The notes under the pieces were generated by a model that was not told where the DNA came from, made no database searches, and saw only the letters and a list, made by a program, of their open reading frames with translations. This document shows positions 4,841 through 43,206 of a stretch of DNA of 43,206 nucleotides, piece by piece (the first letter of the stretch is position 1; every line of letters begins with the position of its first letter). The stretch is from a virus. Both the position numbers and the translations under genes were made by a program. The stretch is taken from positions 1-43,206 of IMG/VR virus record IMGVR_UViG_3300025000_000194, one strand, 5' to 3'.

Positions 4841-6982
4841 TTGACAGAATCAAACACAACTCAATTAAGTATCAAACTTCACAAGTATCAGACGAGGATT
4901 TTTGAGAGTACTTCCAGATTCAAAGCATTAATAGCAGGAGTTCAGAGTGGTAAAACGGTTTGCGGGGCTTTGTGGTTGGGGGTTCGAGCTTTGAGTATGC
5001 AAAATAAGAACCATCTTATAGCTGCACCTACTTATAAAATTCTATCTCAATCAACATTGCCGAAATTCTTTGAGTTATGGCCAACCTTATTAAAATACTA
5101 CAAAAAACAGGATGGTGTTATTGATCTCCCAGGTGGTGGAAAAATATTTATCAGATCAACGGAGAACCCTGTAGGGCTTGAAGGGATGACACTGAAGTCA
5201 GCTTGGCTTGATGAGGCTGGTCAGATGAAGTCGATGGCTTGGATTGTTCTACAAGCTAGACTTGCAATCGAGATGGGCGAGGCGATGCTCACAACTACAC
5301 CTTATTCAATGAATTGGGTGAGGAATGATTTTGTTAAACAGTTTGAATCAGGTAATAAAAGTTATGATGTTATCTCGTTCTCTTCGATTGATTCTCCGTA
5401 CTTTCCAAAAGAGGAGTACGAACGCATGAAACAAACTTTAAGTGAAGAGATGTTTGACATGCGATACCGTGGAATATTTAGAAAGTTTTCAGGATTAGTT
5501 TATCGTGACTTTGATCGCAATGTGCACGTCATTGATGTTAAGCTTAAACCTGGTTGGGCACTCTATAGATCAATCGACTGGGGCTATAATGATCCGTTTT
5601 GTTGTTTGTGGATTGCTGTCGATTTCGATTCAAATGTTTATATTTATCGTGAACATTATGAGGCAGAGCAACCAACGGACTATCATGCTGAAATGATTAA
5701 GGCACTAAGCTTTGGTGAGAAATACAAATGGAGTTTAGGTGACTCAGCTAATCCCCAAATGATCAAAGACATGATGGTTAAGGGGATTGAAGTGCAGGCC
5801 TGTATCAAAGGGCCTGGTTCAATTCAAGCTGGTATTGAGCAAGTTAGAAACTTTTTGCAAGTTAGAGCGAATGGGAAACCTAGATTGTTTGTTGATAAGA
5901 ATTGTATCAACACAATCGATGAGTTTGAAAACTATCGGTATCCAGAAGACAGTAGAGATGATAAGAATAAAAGTGATCTCCCAGAGGATTATTTCAACCA
6001 CGCATGTTTTACAAAAGATGTAAAGGTTTTAACAGATAATGGGGAAGTACCTATATATAAGATAAAAAAGGGGGATAGAGTTAGAACTCCATTTGGAGTT
6101 TCTAAAGTATTAGAATGTGGAAAAACTGGGCATTCAAAAGTTTTTAGATTTGGTAATGGGGGGATTACAGGTAGTCATAAGATTTTTACACAAAGAGGGC
6201 TTGTTAGGTTTGATGCTTTGCGATATAATGATTATGTATGCAAATTAAATCAGAGAAAATCATTATTGATGGGATCAGTTTCAGAAGGTATCCACAATCG
6301 AAGAAGATGGAGCTTAGAAAGTATTTTATGTGTTCTCAGACGGCTAAGACAGGCTATAGAACAGAACGACTACATCGATATATTTGGGGGAAATATAATG
6401 GTGAAATTCCTAAGGGTTATCATATTCATCATAAAGATAATAATTTTCTTAATAATGAATTGGATAATTTGGAATTGGTATCAACTAAAGAACATGCTCA
6501 AAGACACTACGAGGAGATGCTTCCGATTGCTAAGAAAAACATTGAATATGCTAGAAAATTTGCAAGCATCTGGCATGGTACCGAAGAAGGTATTAAATTC
6601 CATAAAAGGATTGGCAAAATGGCTTGGGAAAATAAAAAATATTACTCAAAAATTTGTGAGATCTGTGGAGAAGAATTTAAAACACCATTTCCAGAAAGAA
6701 CAAAGTATTGTCATCGAGGAAAGAGTCGGAATAATTGCAGACAGGCAGCACTTAGGAGAAGAAGAAGATGTTTACAATCTTAAAACTGAGTATGGAATGT
6801 ATTTTGCAAATGGTATATTAGTTTCAAATTGTGACTGCACAAGGTACTTTATCCATAAGTTTGCAACACCGAGAAAAGACAGCATAAAAAAACAAATCAG
6901 TGAGCCTTTATCTCCACGTGAGATTAGAATTAAGAACAGTAAAAAGGGTACGAATAGATTTTCTGATATGTATAAGATGTAA
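4841..6982 (+). CDS. terL: Large terminase subunit interrupted by an intein
   Basis: DNA-packaging ATPase-nuclease. The 713-codon frame gives 388 residues of N-extein, a 275-residue intein and 50 residues of C-extein; spliced length is 438, normal for TerL. Walker A is AGVQSGKT (residues 32-39) and Walker B is AWLDEAG with D124-E125. The RNase-H-like nuclease domain starts at SIDWGYNDP (D246) and continues with LGDSANP. The intein splits NHA from CDCTRY, the last acidic motif of the nuclease. The start is a TTG at 4841, chosen because no ATG precedes the Walker A; it has no Shine-Dalgarno sequence. Packaging should need protein splicing. Confidence 0.93.
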   Translation: MTESNTTQLSIKLHKYQTRIFESTSRFKALIAGVQSGKTVCGALWLGVRALSMQNKNHLIAAPTYKILSQSTLPKFFELWPTLLKYYKKQDGVIDLPGGGKIFIRSTENPVGLEGMTLKSAWLDEAGQMKSMAWIVLQARLAIEMGEAMLTTTPYSMNWVRNDFVKQFESGNKSYDVISFSSIDSPYFPKEEYERMKQTLSEEMFDMRYRGIFRKFSGLVYRDFDRNVHVIDVKLKPGWALYRSIDWGYNDPFCCLWIAVDFDSNVYIYREHYEAEQPTDYHAEMIKALSFGEKYKWSLGDSANPQMIKDMMVKGIEVQACIKGPGSIQAGIEQVRNFLQVRANGKPRLFVDKNCINTIDEFENYRYPEDSRDDKNKSDLPEDYFNHACFTKDVKVLTDNGEVPIYKIKKGDRVRTPFGVSKVLECGKTGHSKVFRFGNGGITGSHKIFTQRGLVRFDALRYNDYVCKLNQRKSLLMGSVSEGIHNRRRWSLESILCVLRRLRQAIEQNDYIDIFGGNIMVKFLRVIIFIIKIIIFLIMNWIIWNWYQLKNMLKDTTRRCFRLLRKTLNMLENLQASGMVPKKVLNSIKGLAKWLGKIKNITQKFVRSVEKNLKHHFQKEQSIVIEERVGIIADRQHLGEEEDVYNLKTEYGMYFANGILVSNCDCTRYFIHKFATPRKDSIKKQISEPLSPREIRIKNSKKGTNRFSDMYKM
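6005..6829 (+). other. Intein in TerL
   Basis: The intein begins with Cys (TGT 6005) and ends with VSN before a +1 Cys (TGT 6830). Block A is CFTKDVKVLTDNGEV with KKGDRV; block B is TGSHKIFTQRG, with the expected T-x-x-H. Blocks F and G are EEDVYNLKTEYGMYF and ANGILVSN. The penultimate His is Ser, which active inteins tolerate. The middle (about 6240-6755) is open in this frame, but its translation is an odd basic and very hydrophobic sequence unlike any endonuclease. The recognisable endonuclease is encoded there in another frame. Confidence 0.88.
6238..6783 (+). CDS. HNH homing endonuclease nested out of frame in the intein
   Basis: A 181-residue frame, shifted by one base from TerL, lies wholly inside the intein coding region. 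Residues about 45-90 carry a full HNH_3-type motif: HRYIWGKYNGEIPKGYHIHH, then KDNNFLNNELDNLELVST and EHAQRH. A C-terminal zinc site follows (CEICGEEF, then C, C and a basic tail). Free-standing phage and group I intron endonucleases look like this. The ATG at 6238 is internal to the intein gene. Translation would need internal initiation or a frameshift. The enzyme probably cuts intein-free terL alleles and so spreads the element; that function is inferred from the family. Confidence 0.85.
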   Translation: MQIKSEKIIIDGISFRRYPQSKKMELRKYFMCSQTAKTGYRTERLHRYIWGKYNGEIPKGYHIHHKDNNFLNNELDNLELVSTKEHAQRHYEEMLPIAKKNIEYARKFASIWHGTEEGIKFHKRIGKMAWENKKYYSKICEICGEEFKTPFPERTKYCHRGKSRNNCRQAALRRRRRCLQS

Positions 6983-36061: not shown

Positions 36062-36661
36062 TTATTTTGAGTATTTTCCCATAATGTCAGTGATATACTT
36101 TACAACCTCAAGGTTGCCTCCTTTCTGCACCGCAAGTTGAAGAAGATTCCTGCCATTAACCAACGCCATCGGGTCAACTCCAAGTTCTTTTAAGTACTTT
36201 ACAACCTCAAGGTTGCCTCCTTCCTGCACCGCAAGATGAAGAAGATTCCTGCCATTAACCAACGCCATCGGGTCAATCCCAAGTTCCTTCAAGTACTTTA
36301 CAACCTCAAGGTTGCCTCCATCCTGAACCGCAAGATGAAGAAGATTCCAGCCATCAGCCAACGCCATCGGGTCAACTCCAAGTTCTTTCAAGTACTTTAC
36401 AACCTCAAGGTTGCCTCCTTTCTGCACCGCAAGATGAAGAAGATTCCAGCCATCAGCCAACGCCATCGGGTCAACTCCAAGTTCTTTTAAGTACTTTACA
36501 ACCTCAAGGTTGCCTCCATCCTGCACCGCAAGTTGAAGAAGATTCCTGCCATTAACCAACGCCATGGGGTCAATCCCAAGTTCCTTCAAGTACTTTACAA
36601 CCTCAAGGAGCACACCCCCAGTTTCTGCTAGCCAAGAATAAAATTCATTTTTAGATTTCAT
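36062..36661 (-). CDS. Ankyrin-repeat protein
   Basis: The 199-residue protein has five full 33-residue ankyrin units and a partial sixth. A unit reads GGNLEVVKYLKELG, DPMALxxGxNLL and LAVQ. Only a few positions vary: I/V, V/A, N/D, R/W, Q/H and D/K/E. Ankyrin repeats bind other proteins, and varying residues on a fixed frame is typical of binding surfaces. No membrane segment or enzymatic domain is attached. It may target a host protein. Confidence 0.8.
   Translation of the reverse strand: MKSKNEFYSWLAETGGVLLEVVKYLKELGIDPMALVNGRNLLQLAVQDGGNLEVVKYLKELGVDPMALADGWNLLHLAVQKGGNLEVVKYLKELGVDPMALADGWNLLHLAVQDGGNLEVVKYLKELGIDPMALVNGRNLLHLAVQEGGNLEVVKYLKELGVDPMALVNGRNLLQLAVQKGGNLEVVKYITDIMGKYSK
36062..36661 (-). 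repeat. 99-bp tandem repeats in the ankyrin gene
   Basis: Five units of 99 bp are almost identical at base level, and two-state differences are shuffled among them in different combinations. This is the pattern left by recombination or gene conversion between repeats. Confidence 0.85.
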
Positions 36662-37084: not shown

Positions 37085-37525
37085 TTAATTAAAAGATATT
37101 TCAAACTCCTTACCATCCTTCTTAGCCCAAGCCTTACCCTCCTGGGAGTTACCAATATAATCATACTCAAAGGGAACCAACACAGTCCCATTTAAAGAGT
37201 CTACCATACCGTACTTACCCCCTTTCCTAGCCCTAGCCTTACCCTCCTGAGAGTAACCAATCCAATCATACTCAAAGGGAACAAGTATATTCCCATTAGA
37301 AGAGTCTACCATACCGTACTTATCCCCTTTCTCAGCCCAAGCCTTACCCTCCTGGAAGTCACCAATATAATCATACTCAAAGGGAACCAACACAGTTCCA
37401 TTAGAAGAGTCTACCATACCGTACTTACCCCCCTTACTAGCCCTAGCCTTACCCTCCTGGGAGTTACCAATATTATCATATTGATCACGCCAATTAGTAG
37501 GGAGTTCCTTAATAGTGACTTTCAT
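37085..37525 (-). CDS. WG-repeat protein (146 aa)
   Basis: It starts MKVTIKELPTNWRDQYD and continues with WG units: KYGMVDSSNGTVLVPFEYD, then IG and QEGKAWAEKG. The units are nearly identical in DNA sequence. It shares its N-terminus with the 38217 protein and its fold with the 3039 protein, so all three are paralogues. Variable positions lie in the W/R, E/K and SSNG parts. Function unknown; many such repeats mediate protein binding. Confidence 0.75.
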   Translation of the reverse strand: MKVTIKELPTNWRDQYDNIGNSQEGKARASKGGKYGMVDSSNGTVLVPFEYDYIGDFQEGKAWAEKGDKYGMVDSSNGNILVPFEYDWIGYSQEGKARARKGGKYGMVDSLNGTVLVPFEYDYIGNSQEGKAWAKKDGKEFEISFN

Positions 37526-38216: not shown

Positions 38217-38450
38217 TTAATTAAAAGATATTTCAAATTTCTTCTTCCCCTTACTAACCCAAGCCTTACCCTCCTGGGATTTACCCATACTATCATACTC
38301 AATGGGAACCAAAACAGTCCCATTTGAAGAGTCTACAATACCCCACTTACCATCCTTTTCAACCCAAGACTTTCCCTCTAAATTGGTTACACAAATATAA
38401 TCATACTGATCTCTCCAGCTAGCAGGGAGTTCCTTAATAGTGACTTTCAT
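38217..38450 (-). CDS. Short WG-repeat protein (77 aa)
   Basis: It begins MKVTIKELPASWRDQYD, the same start as the 37085 protein, so I use ATG 38450 instead of an upstream ATG. It has one complete WG unit (KWGIVDSSNGTVLVP with IEYDSMGKSQEGKAW). It is a shortened paralogue or a unit donor for recombination. It lies between the nuclease gene and the SSB-like gene. Confidence 0.7.
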   Translation of the reverse strand: MKVTIKELPASWRDQYDYICVTNLEGKSWVEKDGKWGIVDSSNGTVLVPIEYDSMGKSQEGKAWVSKGKKKFEISFN

Positions 38451-38475
38451 AGTTTGCAGTTGGTTAAAAAATAAA

Positions 38476-39345
38476 TTACCAAGTAGTATAACCTTTTGTA
38501 GCTTCCGCAATTTTATTGAGTTCGGATTGAGAATATCCTAGTGATTGTCCTAATTTAGCAATAATTTTATTTTTATAGCGTGAATATTGTACTTGCCAAT
38601 CTCCAAGAACTGCCTTATTCGATCTAGCATTAGCAATTTGATATTTAGGTAGACCTTTCCAATCAATTTTATCAAGATCATATTTATAAACAAATTCACA
38701 AGGTGGTTCAATATCTTTTGAAATGTAATCATCATGAATGCGCTTAAATCTTCTAAATGTATCCATAAGATTAAATTCAATATCATGACATCTAAAAACT
38801 GATCCTTCGCGTTCCAAAACGAATTGATAAATACCATCAATCACGAATGGTTTATCTTGTTTAAAATGAACATAAAACAGAATCCCTTTATTAGCCTTAA
38901 TGCTTGTCATATAAAAGGCTAATTGTTTTAGATAAGATAGTTTGGGTTTACATTGTTCAATTTCTTGTTTTTGATAATTCCCGTAACTCGTTTTAACCTC
39001 AATCGGAGTTTCAACACCATCAATATTTAATATTCCATCCATGTATCCAGTAACCCTAATTCCCTCCCAGTCGATCTCAACTCTATGTTGATCTCCGTCT
39101 TTAGGTTCGACTAATATTCCCATGTCTCTAAACGAATCAATCACCCTAACCTCAACCATCTTTCTAACTTCAAGTGCGAATTTATCATGTGGCGAATCAG
39201 GATTAGTTTCTTTTTCTCCTTTCCACTTCCAAAAGATCTCTATTTGATCTGTTTCTGATTCGGTGCACCAGAATGAATCTTTAGGATGGTGTTCTTCTTT
39301 TTCTTTTAGAATGTGTTTTTGGATTTCAGTTACTAGATTAATCAT
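38476..39345 (-). CDS. PD-(D/E)XK nuclease, RecB/Cas4-like
   Basis: The 289-residue protein has the nuclease core: GYMDGILNIDGVETPIEVKT contains the D-x(n)-E-V-K triad, and YLKQLAFYM is the Q-x-x-x-Y motif of the RecB/Cas4 family. The enzyme class cuts ssDNA or DNA ends in recombination. It is the first gene downstream of the divergent promoter at 39386-39437, with a CTTCTA box. No Fe-S cysteine cluster is seen, so it is not Cas4 itself. It may process ends for recombination with the SSB-like protein. Confidence 0.8.
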   Translation of the reverse strand: MINLVTEIQKHILKEKEEHHPKDSFWCTESETDQIEIFWKWKGEKETNPDSPHDKFALEVRKMVEVRVIDSFRDMGILVEPKDGDQHRVEIDWEGIRVTGYMDGILNIDGVETPIEVKTSYGNYQKQEIEQCKPKLSYLKQLAFYMTSIKANKGILFYVHFKQDKPFVIDGIYQFVLEREGSVFRCHDIEFNLMDTFRRFKRIHDDYISKDIEPPCEFVYKYDLDKIDWKGLPKYQIANARSNKAVLGDWQVQYSRYKNKIIAKLGQSLGYSQSELNKIAEATKGYTTW

Positions 39346-40059: not shown

Positions 40060-40224
40060 ATGAAAACTCTACCCCCTAAGTATGTCAAAAGGGCTAAGAT
40101 GTGGTGCGTAACCACACTAGATGAATTTTCCGTAGATCATAAAGGAAATAAGAAAAACCAAAAAATAGAATGGTTTAGTGATTATGTAACTGCCTTTAGA
40201 AAATATACTGTGCCTGTAAATTGA
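40060..40224 (+). CDS. Hypothetical small basic protein (54 aa)
   Basis: A frame of 54 codons starts 9 bp after the previous gene: KTLPPKYVKRAKMWCVTTLD, then DHKGNKKNQKIEWF. Basic and Trp-rich. It is co-transcribed with the LexA-like gene. No family is recognised. Confidence 0.55.
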   Translation: MKTLPPKYVKRAKMWCVTTLDEFSVDHKGNKKNQKIEWFSDYVTAFRKYTVPVN

Positions 40225-40297: not shown

Positions 40298-40325
40298 TTG
40301 ACTTTTAGTTTTAAAAGAGTATGCT
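40298..40325 (+). promoter_or_regulatory. Promoter of the replication operon
   Basis: TTGACT at 40298-40303 and TATGCT at 40320-40325 are 16 bp apart. Transcription would start near 40332, ten bases before the structured RNA element. The rest of 40225-40297 holds no gene, only a GGAAATTCC inverted repeat at 40274-40282. Confidence 0.65.
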
Positions 40326-40331
40326 GTGGGT

Positions 40332-40442
40332 AGAAAGTTAATTGCGACTCACATTATGGAACACAAATTTTTATTTATAAAGAGGGGTTACTCAAACATA
40401 TTGAGTCGCAAGCAAAATGTGTTCCTTGAGTAATCCCTTTTT
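40332..40442 (+). ncRNA. Leader RNA with three crossing helices
   Basis: Three inverted repeats lie in the order A-B-C-A'-B'-C'. A (40342-40351) pairs perfectly with A' (40402-40411), B (40358-40365) with B' (40418-40425), and C (40379-40395) with C' (40426-40442) over 17 bp with wobble pairs. The gaps A-B and A'-B' are both 6 nt. A-A' and B-B' form an H-type pseudoknot whose 3' strands sit in the loop of C-C', a terminator-like hairpin with a T-rich end. This may be an attenuator of the replication genes, or a short independent RNA. Confidence 0.6.
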
Positions 40443-40456
40443 GTTAATAATTTTTT

Positions 40457-41290
40457 ATGTATACAACAATAATCCATCCTATAAGGAAATCTCTTTGTTT
40501 ATCCATTGAAGAATATGTTTTATTAGATACAATTTACCATCTATCGCACAATGACAAATACAATGGATGGTGTGTTGCAACTAAAAATTATCTTGGGGAT
40601 GTATGTGATCTTAAAAGAAGTAGAACCTATGAAATAATTAAAACTCTTGAAAAAAAAGGATTAATTCAAAGAGACAATAAAACAGGTTTTTTAAAAACAA
40701 TGGATGTTTGGAATGAAATGATCGCTAATAAATCCGATTGGATAATTGGATTTTCTGGTAAAGAATCTCAATTTATTAGTGCCAATTTAGTACAACAAAA
40801 ATTACAGATTAGCACATCTCTTAATCCACGAAATGAACCTATAGTCCAGGAATCGGACATTCATAGTCCAGAAAGTGGACACAATATATATATAGATAAT
40901 AAGAATAATAGTAAACTATTACAGACACCGTCTGAAAAAGTTGAATATGGGAATCCGAAAGTAAACCATGTCTTGTTGCTTTTACTCACACTGACTGGTA
41001 GAGAAGATTTCAAAGAGAGTAGGCAATATCAGCGTATTTTCGGGAAACACATAGCAAGCCTTATGGAAAAGATAGGTGAGGCAGAATTAAAAAAGCGGGT
41101 TGCCGATATTCTTTCAGATTCATTTAAGGCTAAAAATTGCGGTAGTCTAAAATATCTTTACGGGGAATTAAAGGCGGTGCAAGTTATTGATCCAAACAAG
41201 CGTGGCAAAGATGAGTCTTACGAGGATTTTTTGGTTAGAACAGGCGTCTTACCTCCTAAAAAAACACAGAATGTCGAAAGAATTGATTAG
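40457..41290 (+). CDS. Replication initiator-like winged-helix protein
   Basis: The 277-residue protein has a winged helix near residues 40-75 (NYLGDVCDLKRSRTYEIIKT, LEKKGLIQRD), as in replisome organisers. A disordered linker leads to a helical C-terminal domain (RIFGKHIASLMEKIGEAELK). It directly precedes the primase-helicase gene and overlaps it by 20 bp. It probably binds the origin and loads the helicase. The origin itself is not identified. Confidence 0.65.
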   Translation: MYTTIIHPIRKSLCLSIEEYVLLDTIYHLSHNDKYNGWCVATKNYLGDVCDLKRSRTYEIIKTLEKKGLIQRDNKTGFLKTMDVWNEMIANKSDWIIGFSGKESQFISANLVQQKLQISTSLNPRNEPIVQESDIHSPESGHNIYIDNKNNSKLLQTPSEKVEYGNPKVNHVLLLLLTLTGREDFKESRQYQRIFGKHIASLMEKIGEAELKKRVADILSDSFKAKNCGSLKYLYGELKAVQVIDPNKRGKDESYEDFLVRTGVLPPKKTQNVERID

Positions 41291-43001
41291 TAATTTTCTG
41301 AGTCATTTCCCGAATTATTATCTGCAAACATTTGATGACAAGGCCGTCGATAAGAGTTTGACAAGATACGGCACGCCACAGGAATTTTGTTTTGATGAAT
41401 TGATAAACTTAAACAAGCGCGGTGCTGGGATTTTTTTCACTCCTAACAGATTCCCAAAGATCAGACGCAAAGAAGAATGTGCTGGTGTGAATGCTTGGAT
41501 CCTCGAAATGGATTATGAAAAAGCAGAGCAATGGAAAAAGCTTATGGAATGCCCCATAAGCCCGTCAATTATTATTGAAACTAGAAAATCTTATCATTGC
41601 TACTGGTTGGCAAAAGATGGGACAGTAGAAAATTATGATCGTATCACGAGGGGGTTGATTCAATATTTTAATGGTGATCCTGCTTGTAAAGATATTTCTA
41701 GGGTTTTTCGTATTCCGTGGTTTTTTCATAACAAACAAGAGCCGTTTTTAGTTAAGCCAATTTTAGAGGATTATGATTCAATTTATACTGAAGAAGAGAT
41801 GATGAAATGGTATCCGTATGAGGAGAAAAAGGTTGTTTTAAATAACAATGATTTTTGGGATTATGTTAGTAAATTAAATAATCGACAAATGATACAGAGG
41901 CTTTCAGGGGGGCAGATGGTTAATGGTGAAATTTTTACATTTCGTAAAAGATCAACTGGCGGGGATTATATCGATGTAAATAATAAGCCAGCAGATGCTT
42001 GGATTGATGAAAAAGGTTTTATCGGTTCAGGTAAAGGGGGTGGACCTACTTTTATACAATGGCTTGAGTTTTATGGCCACAGCAAAGGAGAGATAGCAAA
42101 ATGGGTAAAAGATTATTGTAAAGATTTGATTCCTACTGATGTTTTATTGAAAATGCCAAAAGTTTATTCGGATGATTTGATTGCTTCTGATTTAAAAAAT
42201 AATATTTTTGAGATAGTAAGTAGGAAAGTATATTTAACTTGGGGGCTTGCCTCGCTCGATCGGCTTTTTTCTCCACTTGAGCGAAGTCGATATATCGTTT
42301 TAGTGGGAGAGACAGGTGTTGGGAAAACAGCATGGGCATTTCAAACAGCATTGAGAAACGCAGAAACAGGCAAACGAGTTTTATATTTATCGCTTGAAAT
42401 GAGCAATTCAGCATTGGTTTTGAGATATGTCAGGGCTAAAATGGGTATAAAACCGATGGAATGGAGAGATAGGAAATTTGATATTAATGAGCTTAATCGT
42501 AGAATTGACAGATTGCCAAAAACTTTATTCATGAAACAAATAGATACTCAAAACACGGAAATTAATCTTGATTTGATTAATAAGATTATCATTGATGGCA
42601 AATATGATATGGTTTTTATTGATAATTTTGGATTTATTGAGGCACGAGGTGAATCAGTTAATGAGCAGATGCGCAAAGTTTCACGAGGTATGGTTGATTT
42701 AAAAAACAAAACAAACACAACAATCTTTGCACTTCATCATTTTAGAAAGGGAACTGACAAATCACAAGTTAGAAGAAGTTTGGATTCGATTTTAGGATCA
42801 AGTAAAATTGCCCATGATGTTGATTTTGTTCTTCAAGTTTATCGGGATTTGAATATTGATGAAGATTCTATTGAATCTAAAAAGTCTGAATTTATAGTTT
42901 CAATAACAAAAGATCGTGATTGGGGTGGTTCAGCTTATTCAACAGTTTATTATAAAAACGGTGAATTTTATTCAAACTATGAAGACCTACAAAAAACATA
43001 A
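41271..43001 (+). CDS. Primase-helicase (PrimPol-like plus DnaB-like)
   Basis: The 576-residue protein starts at ATG 41271. The N-terminal part resembles RepB/PrimPol-type primases: ILEMDYEKAEQW and IIIETRKSYHCYWLA with the conserved H-x-Y-W, then SRVFRIPWFFH. The C-terminal half is a DnaB-like SF4 helicase with Walker A GETGVGKT (about 345-352), YLSLEMS, Walker B MVFIDNFGF (about 447) and a later LHHFRKG. It unwinds the fork and makes primers. The first putative metal motif is E-M-D rather than D-x-D. Confidence 0.85.
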   Translation: MSKELISNFLSHFPNYYLQTFDDKAVDKSLTRYGTPQEFCFDELINLNKRGAGIFFTPNRFPKIRRKEECAGVNAWILEMDYEKAEQWKKLMECPISPSIIIETRKSYHCYWLAKDGTVENYDRITRGLIQYFNGDPACKDISRVFRIPWFFHNKQEPFLVKPILEDYDSIYTEEEMMKWYPYEEKKVVLNNNDFWDYVSKLNNRQMIQRLSGGQMVNGEIFTFRKRSTGGDYIDVNNKPADAWIDEKGFIGSGKGGGPTFIQWLEFYGHSKGEIAKWVKDYCKDLIPTDVLLKMPKVYSDDLIASDLKNNIFEIVSRKVYLTWGLASLDRLFSPLERSRYIVLVGETGVGKTAWAFQTALRNAETGKRVLYLSLEMSNSALVLRYVRAKMGIKPMEWRDRKFDINELNRRIDRLPKTLFMKQIDTQNTEINLDLINKIIIDGKYDMVFIDNFGFIEARGESVNEQMRKVSRGMVDLKNKTNTTIFALHHFRKGTDKSQVRRSLDSILGSSKIAHDVDFVLQVYRDLNIDEDSIESKKSEFIVSITKDRDWGGSAYSTVYYKNGEFYSNYEDLQKT

Positions 43002-43002
43002 T

Positions 43003-43152
43003 ATGATTTTTTATGATGTTGATATCGATGAGGCTACAATTGAATTATTATCAGAAATATCAACTGTAAATAAATTAATCGATAACAGAATTGAAATAAG
43101 GATTTGGGATGAAAAGAATAATCGGGTTAAAGTTATTCAACCCAAAGGATGA
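43003..43152 (+). CDS. Hypothetical small protein (49 aa), complete copy
   Basis: It starts at ATG 43003, one base after the helicase stop, rather than at a frame-overlapping ATG inside the helicase gene. The product (MIFYDVDIDEATIELLSE, then NRIEIRIWDEKNNRVKVIQP) is a charged alpha-beta peptide. The circular junction passes through its 3' end, and a second allele of its C-terminus is at 1-108. Seven bases after the stop begins the promoter for the PcfJ-like gene. Confidence 0.7.
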   Translation: MIFYDVDIDEATIELLSEISTVNKLIDNRIEIRIWDEKNNRVKVIQPKG

Positions 43153-43206
43153 TAATTATTTGACTTCTAAATATAAATAATGATATATTAGGATTAATTA
43201 ATCTTT
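43045..43206. repeat. Terminal overlap, right copy (circular closure)
   Basis: Right-hand partner of bases 1-162. It holds the end of the last plus-strand gene and the promoter that, in the circle, drives the PcfJ-like gene at 175. Confidence 0.9.
43160..43189 (+). promoter_or_regulatory. Right-hand copy of the PcfJ-gene promoter
   Basis: It is the same sequence as 116-145, counted twice because the circular sequence overlaps itself. In the circle there is one copy. Confidence 0.6.

Follow-up and report, generated by a model that had tools for sequence, protein, structure and literature searches.

The virus record IMGVR_UViG_3300025000_000194, analysed here over its full length of 43,206 bases (hereafter, the window), contains packaging, portal, and head genes and thus belongs to a tailed phage. 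The first 162 bases (1-162) are identical to the last 162 (43045-43206) at 155 positions; therefore, the genome is close to complete, either circular or terminally redundant, and its two ends derive from slightly different strains. The sign of the GC skew flips near 39-40 kb, and the direction of the genes also changes there. Between the end of a small open reading frame at 40224 and a replication initiator gene at 40457, no open reading frame of at least 40 amino acids was listed, and this gap holds a sigma-70-like promoter and three crossing helices. With the primase-helicase encoded after the initiator, two relatives were found in IMG/VR, L002 (60% protein identity to the window) and L003 (58%; IMGVR_UViG_3300038315_001181). 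The features of the locus are as follows.

40298-40325, + strand: sigma-70-like promoter TTGACT-16-TATGCT, 9 of 12 to the consensus; TTGACTTTT and the spacing are kept in L003 (795-822)
40329-40341, + strand: short 5' leader before helix A, with the putative start site in the GGGTAGAAAGTTAA region; GGGYAGA and TTAA are kept in L003
40342-40351, + strand: helix A, 5' arm TTGCGACTCA, pairing with A' in 10 bp, all Watson-Crick
40352-40357, + strand: linker A-B, 6 nt, CATTAT (CATTTT in L003)
40358-40365, + strand: helix B, 5' arm GGAACACA, pairing with B' in 8 bp, all Watson-Crick
40366-40378, + strand: linker B-C, 13 nt, T-rich; TTTTATTTA is common with L003
40379-40395, + strand: helix C, 5' arm, 17 bp with C', two of them G.U
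40396-40401, + strand: linker C-A', 6 nt
40402-40411, + strand: helix A, 3' arm (A') TGAGTCGCAA
40412-40417, + strand: linker A'-B', 6 nt, GCAAAA (ACAAAA in L003)
40418-40425, + strand: helix B, 3' arm (B') TGTGTTCC
40426-40442, + strand: helix C, 3' arm (C'), with T5 at its end, directly adjoining B' (gap 0)
40446-40450, + strand: AATAA (helix D), which can pair with TTATT at 40371-40375 and so lengthen C; L003 has the same possibility
40457-41290, + strand: DnaD/O-like replication initiator, first gene of the operon (PHROG 186, 345, 270)
40841-40881 (tract region to 40920), + strand: two 19-nt iteron-like repeats and then an AT-rich tract, inside the initiator gene
41253-43001, + strand: primase-helicase (DnaB_C, RepB_primase), common to the window, L002, and L003 with 58-60% identity

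The original prediction, made from the letters of the window, had described three inverted repeats, arranged as A-B-C-A'-B'-C', whose helices measure 10, 8, and 17 bp. This layout is present at 40342-40442 (a span of 101 nt), and the coordinates of the arms confirm that every helix crosses the other two and that the gaps A-B and A'-B' are both 6 nt long. In its longest uninterrupted form, helix C has 19 bp (40377-40395/40426-40444). A layout detector was defined by the order of the arms, their minimum lengths, and loose limits on the gaps, with a score equal to the paired bases minus the G.U pairs. On both strands of the window it gave three matches, of which this site scored 34 (+ strand) and the others 18 and 23, and in 10,326,234 bases of first-order Markov sequence derived from the window it gave 215 matches, the best scoring 27. 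Furthermore, when the partners were slid by 1-4 bases, only 13-18 of the 35 pairs were formed, against 35 of 35 in register. Thus, the layout is not a chance alignment.

The iteron-like repeats have a spacing of 22 nt, and similar arrays lie inside the initiator genes of L002 and L003; TRF found no repeats in the window, where only two iteron copies exist. Since these repeats lie inside the initiator genes, we infer an origin of the lambda O type within the gene, approximately 400 bp downstream of the crossing helices. The element itself was also considered as the origin and rejected, because all three phages have their iteron-like repeats within the initiator gene.

Elsewhere in the window, ankyrin-repeat and WG-repeat proteins are encoded on the - strand (36062-36661 and 37085-37525), an unusual cargo for a phage, and a second short WG-like open reading frame was noticed by eye at 38217-38510. 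The product of 175-1746 is a collagen-like tail fibre protein, with 51% identity over 56% of its length to a protein of Edwardsiella phage GF-2 and 68% identity over 41% to one of Bacteroides phage BF1-TP2.

Comparison with a related phage

L002 (5,240 bases) begins inside its initiator gene and thus cannot show the element. In L003, an unbiased inverted-repeat search upstream of the initiator found three pairs in the same crossing order at 839-942: A of 10 bp, B of 9 bp, and C of 15 positions with one mismatch (an alternative drawing makes C one base longer). Accordingly, the same fold is carried by the one relative of one that is able to show it, and the element is known from two sequences. 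The linkers A-B and A'-B' are 6 nt in both phages and near-identical in their letters, while the letters of the helices differ, a pattern that speaks for a single fixed fold rather than for alternative states; the linker C-A', with 6 nt in the window, has 7 nt in L003 (896-902).

The columns of the helices were aligned by hand. When the shared TTGCG served to align A and the 3' end to align B, 18 of the 32 shared columns had changed on both sides and still pair (3 in A, 4 in B, and 11 in C), 2 had changed on one side, 11 were unchanged, and 1 was broken; this count is limited to the nine columns of A that are shared and leaves out two on its flanks. When A and B were aligned at the linkers instead, the two-sided changes, counted manually from the aligned rows, were 23 of 33. 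Covariation between the window and its one homologue hence amounts to 18-23 of 32-33 pairs, with one pair broken. In L003, 33 of 34 pairs were formed in register and 9-18 of 34 when the partners were slid by up to 4 bases. The original prediction was to be given up if related phages kept the promoter and the gene without compensating changes; the opposite was found, with two-sided changes in A, B, and C of L003. By score alone L003 does not rise above the background: it reaches 25, as the mismatch interrupts its C helix, and a coding stretch in the distant relative L005 also scores 25 (46 sequences loaded, of which 45 were scanned, 400,733 bases). The match in L003 counts because of its homologous place and the shared linkers.

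Across the two sequences there are six wobble pairs, all of them G.U when the + strand is read and none when the - strand is read; the one further non-Watson-Crick pair is T-C. Together with the position of the + strand promoter, whose distance to the element is the same in both phages (TTGACT-16-TAAGAT at 795-822 in L003), this indicates that the molecule is probably a + strand RNA and neither a DNA cruciform nor an antisense RNA. The good promoter claimed upstream of the element is plausible, but by the scan alone such sites are near chance (13 in 2.3 kb, against 10.2 in shuffled sequences), and its weight therefore comes from L003. With this promoter, also kept in L003, the predicted placement between a promoter and the initiator gene is supported for a structured RNA. 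The element may lie at the start of an early transcript, given the putative promoter located by consensus and conservation. Between the RNA and the gene, there are only weak promoter sites (9 of 12) that overlap the start of the gene (40444-40473 in the window and 1137-1164 in L003), and the operon is thus probably read through the element. We are confident that the element is a conserved structured RNA of the + strand; its layout, strand, and conservation with compensating changes are supported by the two sequences.

No relative of the initiator protein was found among the viral contigs or phage genomes searched. Scans of viral contigs with the helicase gave L002 and L003 as the only close relatives and L004, L005, L006, and L045 as distant ones (23-31% identity); two scans of genome contigs gave no relatives, comparison of the DNA with phage genomes gave no match, and against phages and plasmids the helicase had only weak matches, which, among the matches listed, were to the helicase part. 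Two scans with DNA patterns returned 12 and 23 stretches, one in each being the contig of L003 itself. The 11 other stretches of the first scan contained no further copy, as judged by eye. Among the 22 others tested from the second scan, two (L031 and L042) gave a loose crossing pair, 7-8 bp long, that we attribute to chance, and the remaining stretches contained no further copy.

The region of L003 around the RNA (1-1142) is more than 1 kb almost without open reading frames. Two further folds in this contig are weakly supported, at 676-768 (z -1.7) and 965-1118 (z -2.1); the latter looks like a tRNA-Leu by eye, but ARAGORN found no tRNA there. The terminase of L003 (3509-6925) is interrupted by apparently two inteins (Intein_splicing, LAGLIDADG_3 in two stretches, and Hom_end), and the gene order in this region is unlike that of the window. 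The large terminase subunit of the window (4841-6982) combines Terminase_6N and Terminase_3C with a stretch resembling Hint (PF13403, E 6e-4, below its cutoff), and it is probable that it contains an intein. Apparently, the replication module is common to the two phages and the packaging genes are not.

Folding of the three helices

The coexistence of the helices was examined with a coarse three-dimensional model with one bead per nucleotide, right-handed A-form helices, excluded volume, and helices zipped in order, which includes no real RNA energies. In this model, all helices were formed in 31 of 32 runs for the window in the order A, B, C, in 32 of 32 when C was zipped first, and in 32 of 32 for L003 in the order A, B, C. 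The energies of the separate helices A, B, and C are -15.0, -10.6, and -22.2 kcal/mol in the window and -12.7, -12.6, and -22.8 kcal/mol in L003. Probably all three helices are present together in the cell. However, the hairpin of C plus D, which ranks first among the nested folds of both phages, is itself stable (the nested minimum free energy fold of 40320-40460 has -43 kcal/mol), so the crossing fold may not dominate. Variants of the model with C of 17 bp and of 19 bp were fully formed in 16 of 16 runs each, and those with C plus D in 16 of 16 when this helix was last and in 13 of 16 when it was first. The linker B-C barely suffices for C of 17 bp (mean 6.3 A per nt) and is overstretched, at 7.5 A, with C plus D (25 bp); thus, the crossing fold and the longest C hairpin compete. 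The D pairs are formed by conserved, AT-only sequence without covariation.

A terminator-like hairpin had also been predicted at C. In the window, C consists of an A-tract, a stem, and U5, and a T6 run comes after C plus D, as in an intrinsic terminator. However, in L003 C' is followed by AAUUUUAAAUAAGG with no U run, so that the likeness is specific to the phage of the window, and a stem with a U run kept in relatives, as expected of an intrinsic terminator, was not found. Moreover, the loop of C is 30 nt long and is engaged by the upstream A and B; terminator scans of the window and L003, which cover loops of 3-8 nt, found none. The attenuator suggested by the original prediction, in its classic form with mutually exclusive helices, does not fit, since no nucleotide is common to any two of A, B, and C, and the three can coexist in the coarse model.

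A few of the fully formed runs were knotted (3 of 31 for the window in the order A, B, C, 3 of 32 with C first, and 1 of 32 for L003), and in an earlier model with weak handedness, 2 of 8 were. Thus, with right-handed helices enforced, the layout can be adopted without a knot. Every helix approaches or exceeds one turn, so that true knots may occur in a minority of the molecules.

Possible functions

Our favoured reading, with a rough probability of 0.36, takes the element as a 5' leader of the replication operon, rigid and folded during transcription, whose target in cis would be either the transcript itself or RNA polymerase. It is favoured because the module heads the operon in both phages, the linkers are kept while the helices drift, and no good promoter follows. 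The transcript of the operon would begin with an RNA module of approximately 100 nt, read from the + strand. As the RNA leaves the polymerase, A' would pair with A, B' with B, and then directly C' with C, and the resulting compact fold of three mutually crossing helices would be tied by the 6-nt linkers. This rigid body might then act in cis, most likely by contacting the elongating RNA polymerase and controlling pausing or termination, as HK022 put does, or alternatively by contacting an RNA-binding protein of the phage or the host, and would set the read-through into the initiator and primase-helicase genes. Here we infer the simultaneous formation of the helices in the cell, the transcription start, the action in cis, and the polymerase as the target. 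Action in cis at the head of the operon has a chance somewhat below even, and RNA polymerase as the target is doubtful, the comparison with put covering position and the notion of a nascent RNA free of protein. Control of a single ribosome site is unlikely, because C' and the start codon are 14 nt apart in the window and 200 nt in L003, and the initiators are not alike (28% identity of the window protein to that of L002 and 20% to that of L003).

The unconserved distance to the gene would also suit a free small RNA, which is the main rival, although we think it unlikely. Such an RNA would start near 40330, mostly end at 40442-40455, and act in trans on a host or phage target as a pseudoknotted molecule of approximately 115 nt. 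It would have its own promoter, its end could be provided by the A-tract, stem, and U5 of C in the window or by C plus D and T6, and linkers kept in length and sequence while helices vary are expected of free-standing structured RNAs. However, the missing U run in L003 and the terminator scan, limited to loops of 3-8 nt where the loop here has 30, speak against release, and complete termination would leave the replication operon without a clear promoter. Another possibility, appreciably less probable, is that the knot-like fold stabilises the replication mRNA by blocking 5'-end-dependent decay or a 5'-3' exonuclease. The fold begins approximately 12 nt from the putative transcription start, and compact multi-crossing RNAs can resist exonucleases, as is established for the flaviviral xrRNAs, but a plain 5' hairpin would suffice for this purpose, with neither three crossing helices nor fixed linkers. 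A switch is slightly less probable still: the early fold of A, B, and C would be undone once D' (AATAA) is made and C zips to approximately 25 bp, or a ligand or a protein would choose the state. The competition for the linker B-C in the coarse model and the rank of C plus D as the best nested fold in both phages agree with it. Nevertheless, A, B, and C share no nucleotides, unlike the helices of a classic attenuator, D shows no covariation, and L003 has no U run.

Readings in which the repeats do not act as a + strand RNA are much less probable. As an operator or part of an origin, the DNA itself would be read as inverted repeats upstream of the replication initiator gene, with an AT-rich core and half sites like GACTCA/TTGAGT recurring in A and C. 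This is very unlikely, since a protein site would conserve its letters, which here change in a compensating manner, and the wobbles are G.U on one strand only; the iterons, moreover, lie approximately 400 bp away inside the initiator gene. The antisense-type copy control of replication mentioned in the original prediction is disfavoured as well and slightly less probable still. The element precedes a replication gene and contains a promoter-like site on the minus strand in each phage, but these sites occur at chance frequency and are not aligned between the phages, the six G.U pairs of six fit the + strand, and a single crossing fold is not the anatomy of loop-loop antisense RNAs.

Relation to known RNAs

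The original prediction knew no named RNA family with this layout. In agreement, Rfam 15 gave no match at the gathering score in the window or L003 (the best weak matches, with E values of 0.08 and 0.12, were far below gathering), and a limited literature search found no paper describing this RNA. With its fold kept in the distantly related L003 in largely different letters, the element is probably a real, so far unnamed RNA. The crossing pattern was first seen by eye and then survived the comparative test; such RNAs may be overlooked by standard scans, because nested folding tools cannot draw crossings and covariance models cannot store them. The element is short and has no protein part, and it can be made in vitro, so that the order of folding, the presence of all helices together, resistance to exonucleases, antitermination, and even knotting are open to direct test.

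Both the window and L003 have, as a sequence layout, exactly the crossing order of the ABCABC pseudoknots, described in PMC3390330 as 'pseudotrefoil' (genus 1, subclass 1C). Few catalogued RNAs have three helices that all cross one another: 51 of the 1939 structures studied there belong to this class. The mean span given for the class is 74 nt (PMC3390330), against 101 nt and helices of 10, 8, and 17 bp here; the likeness is one of shape class only and implies no homology. According to PMC5381007, knotting is possible in pseudoknots that have two helices of approximately 11 bp or more; the element nearly reaches this with A (10 bp) and C (17 bp), and our model makes knots the exception. The occurrence of knotted RNA in nature is described as an open question (PMC5381007, PMC11218946), for which a knotted minority of this RNA, if true, would be a natural candidate.

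Among simpler leaders, an H-type pseudoknot resembles the element in that A and B together, and C with either of them, form an H-type crossing pair. However, here a third long helix crosses both, and the loop of 36 nt between A and B includes the 5' arm of C. Lambda OOP is a small RNA next to an O-type initiator gene with internal iterons, and it is antisense to genes. Both OOP and the present element adjoin an O-type initiator with iterons inside, whereas this element lies on the coding strand.

The nearest system in presumed role and position is put of phage HK022. The putL and putR RNAs are described in PMC9378689 as nascent, structured, protein-free phage RNAs of approximately 70 nt with two stem-loops, at the start of an early transcript, putL being just downstream of its promoter. 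What defines put in function is protein-free antitermination by way of the zinc-binding domain of the RNA polymerase beta' subunit. Compared by description only, the likeness is in the presumed position at the start of the transcript and the presumed role. The element is not a member of put, which has two stem-loops and 70 nt (PMC9378689), against three crossing helices and 101 nt here. It seems rather unlikely that the element represents a new architecture of phage regulatory RNA, in which three long crossing helices would fold during transcription into a rigid body that acts protein-free on RNA polymerase at the head of the replication operon.
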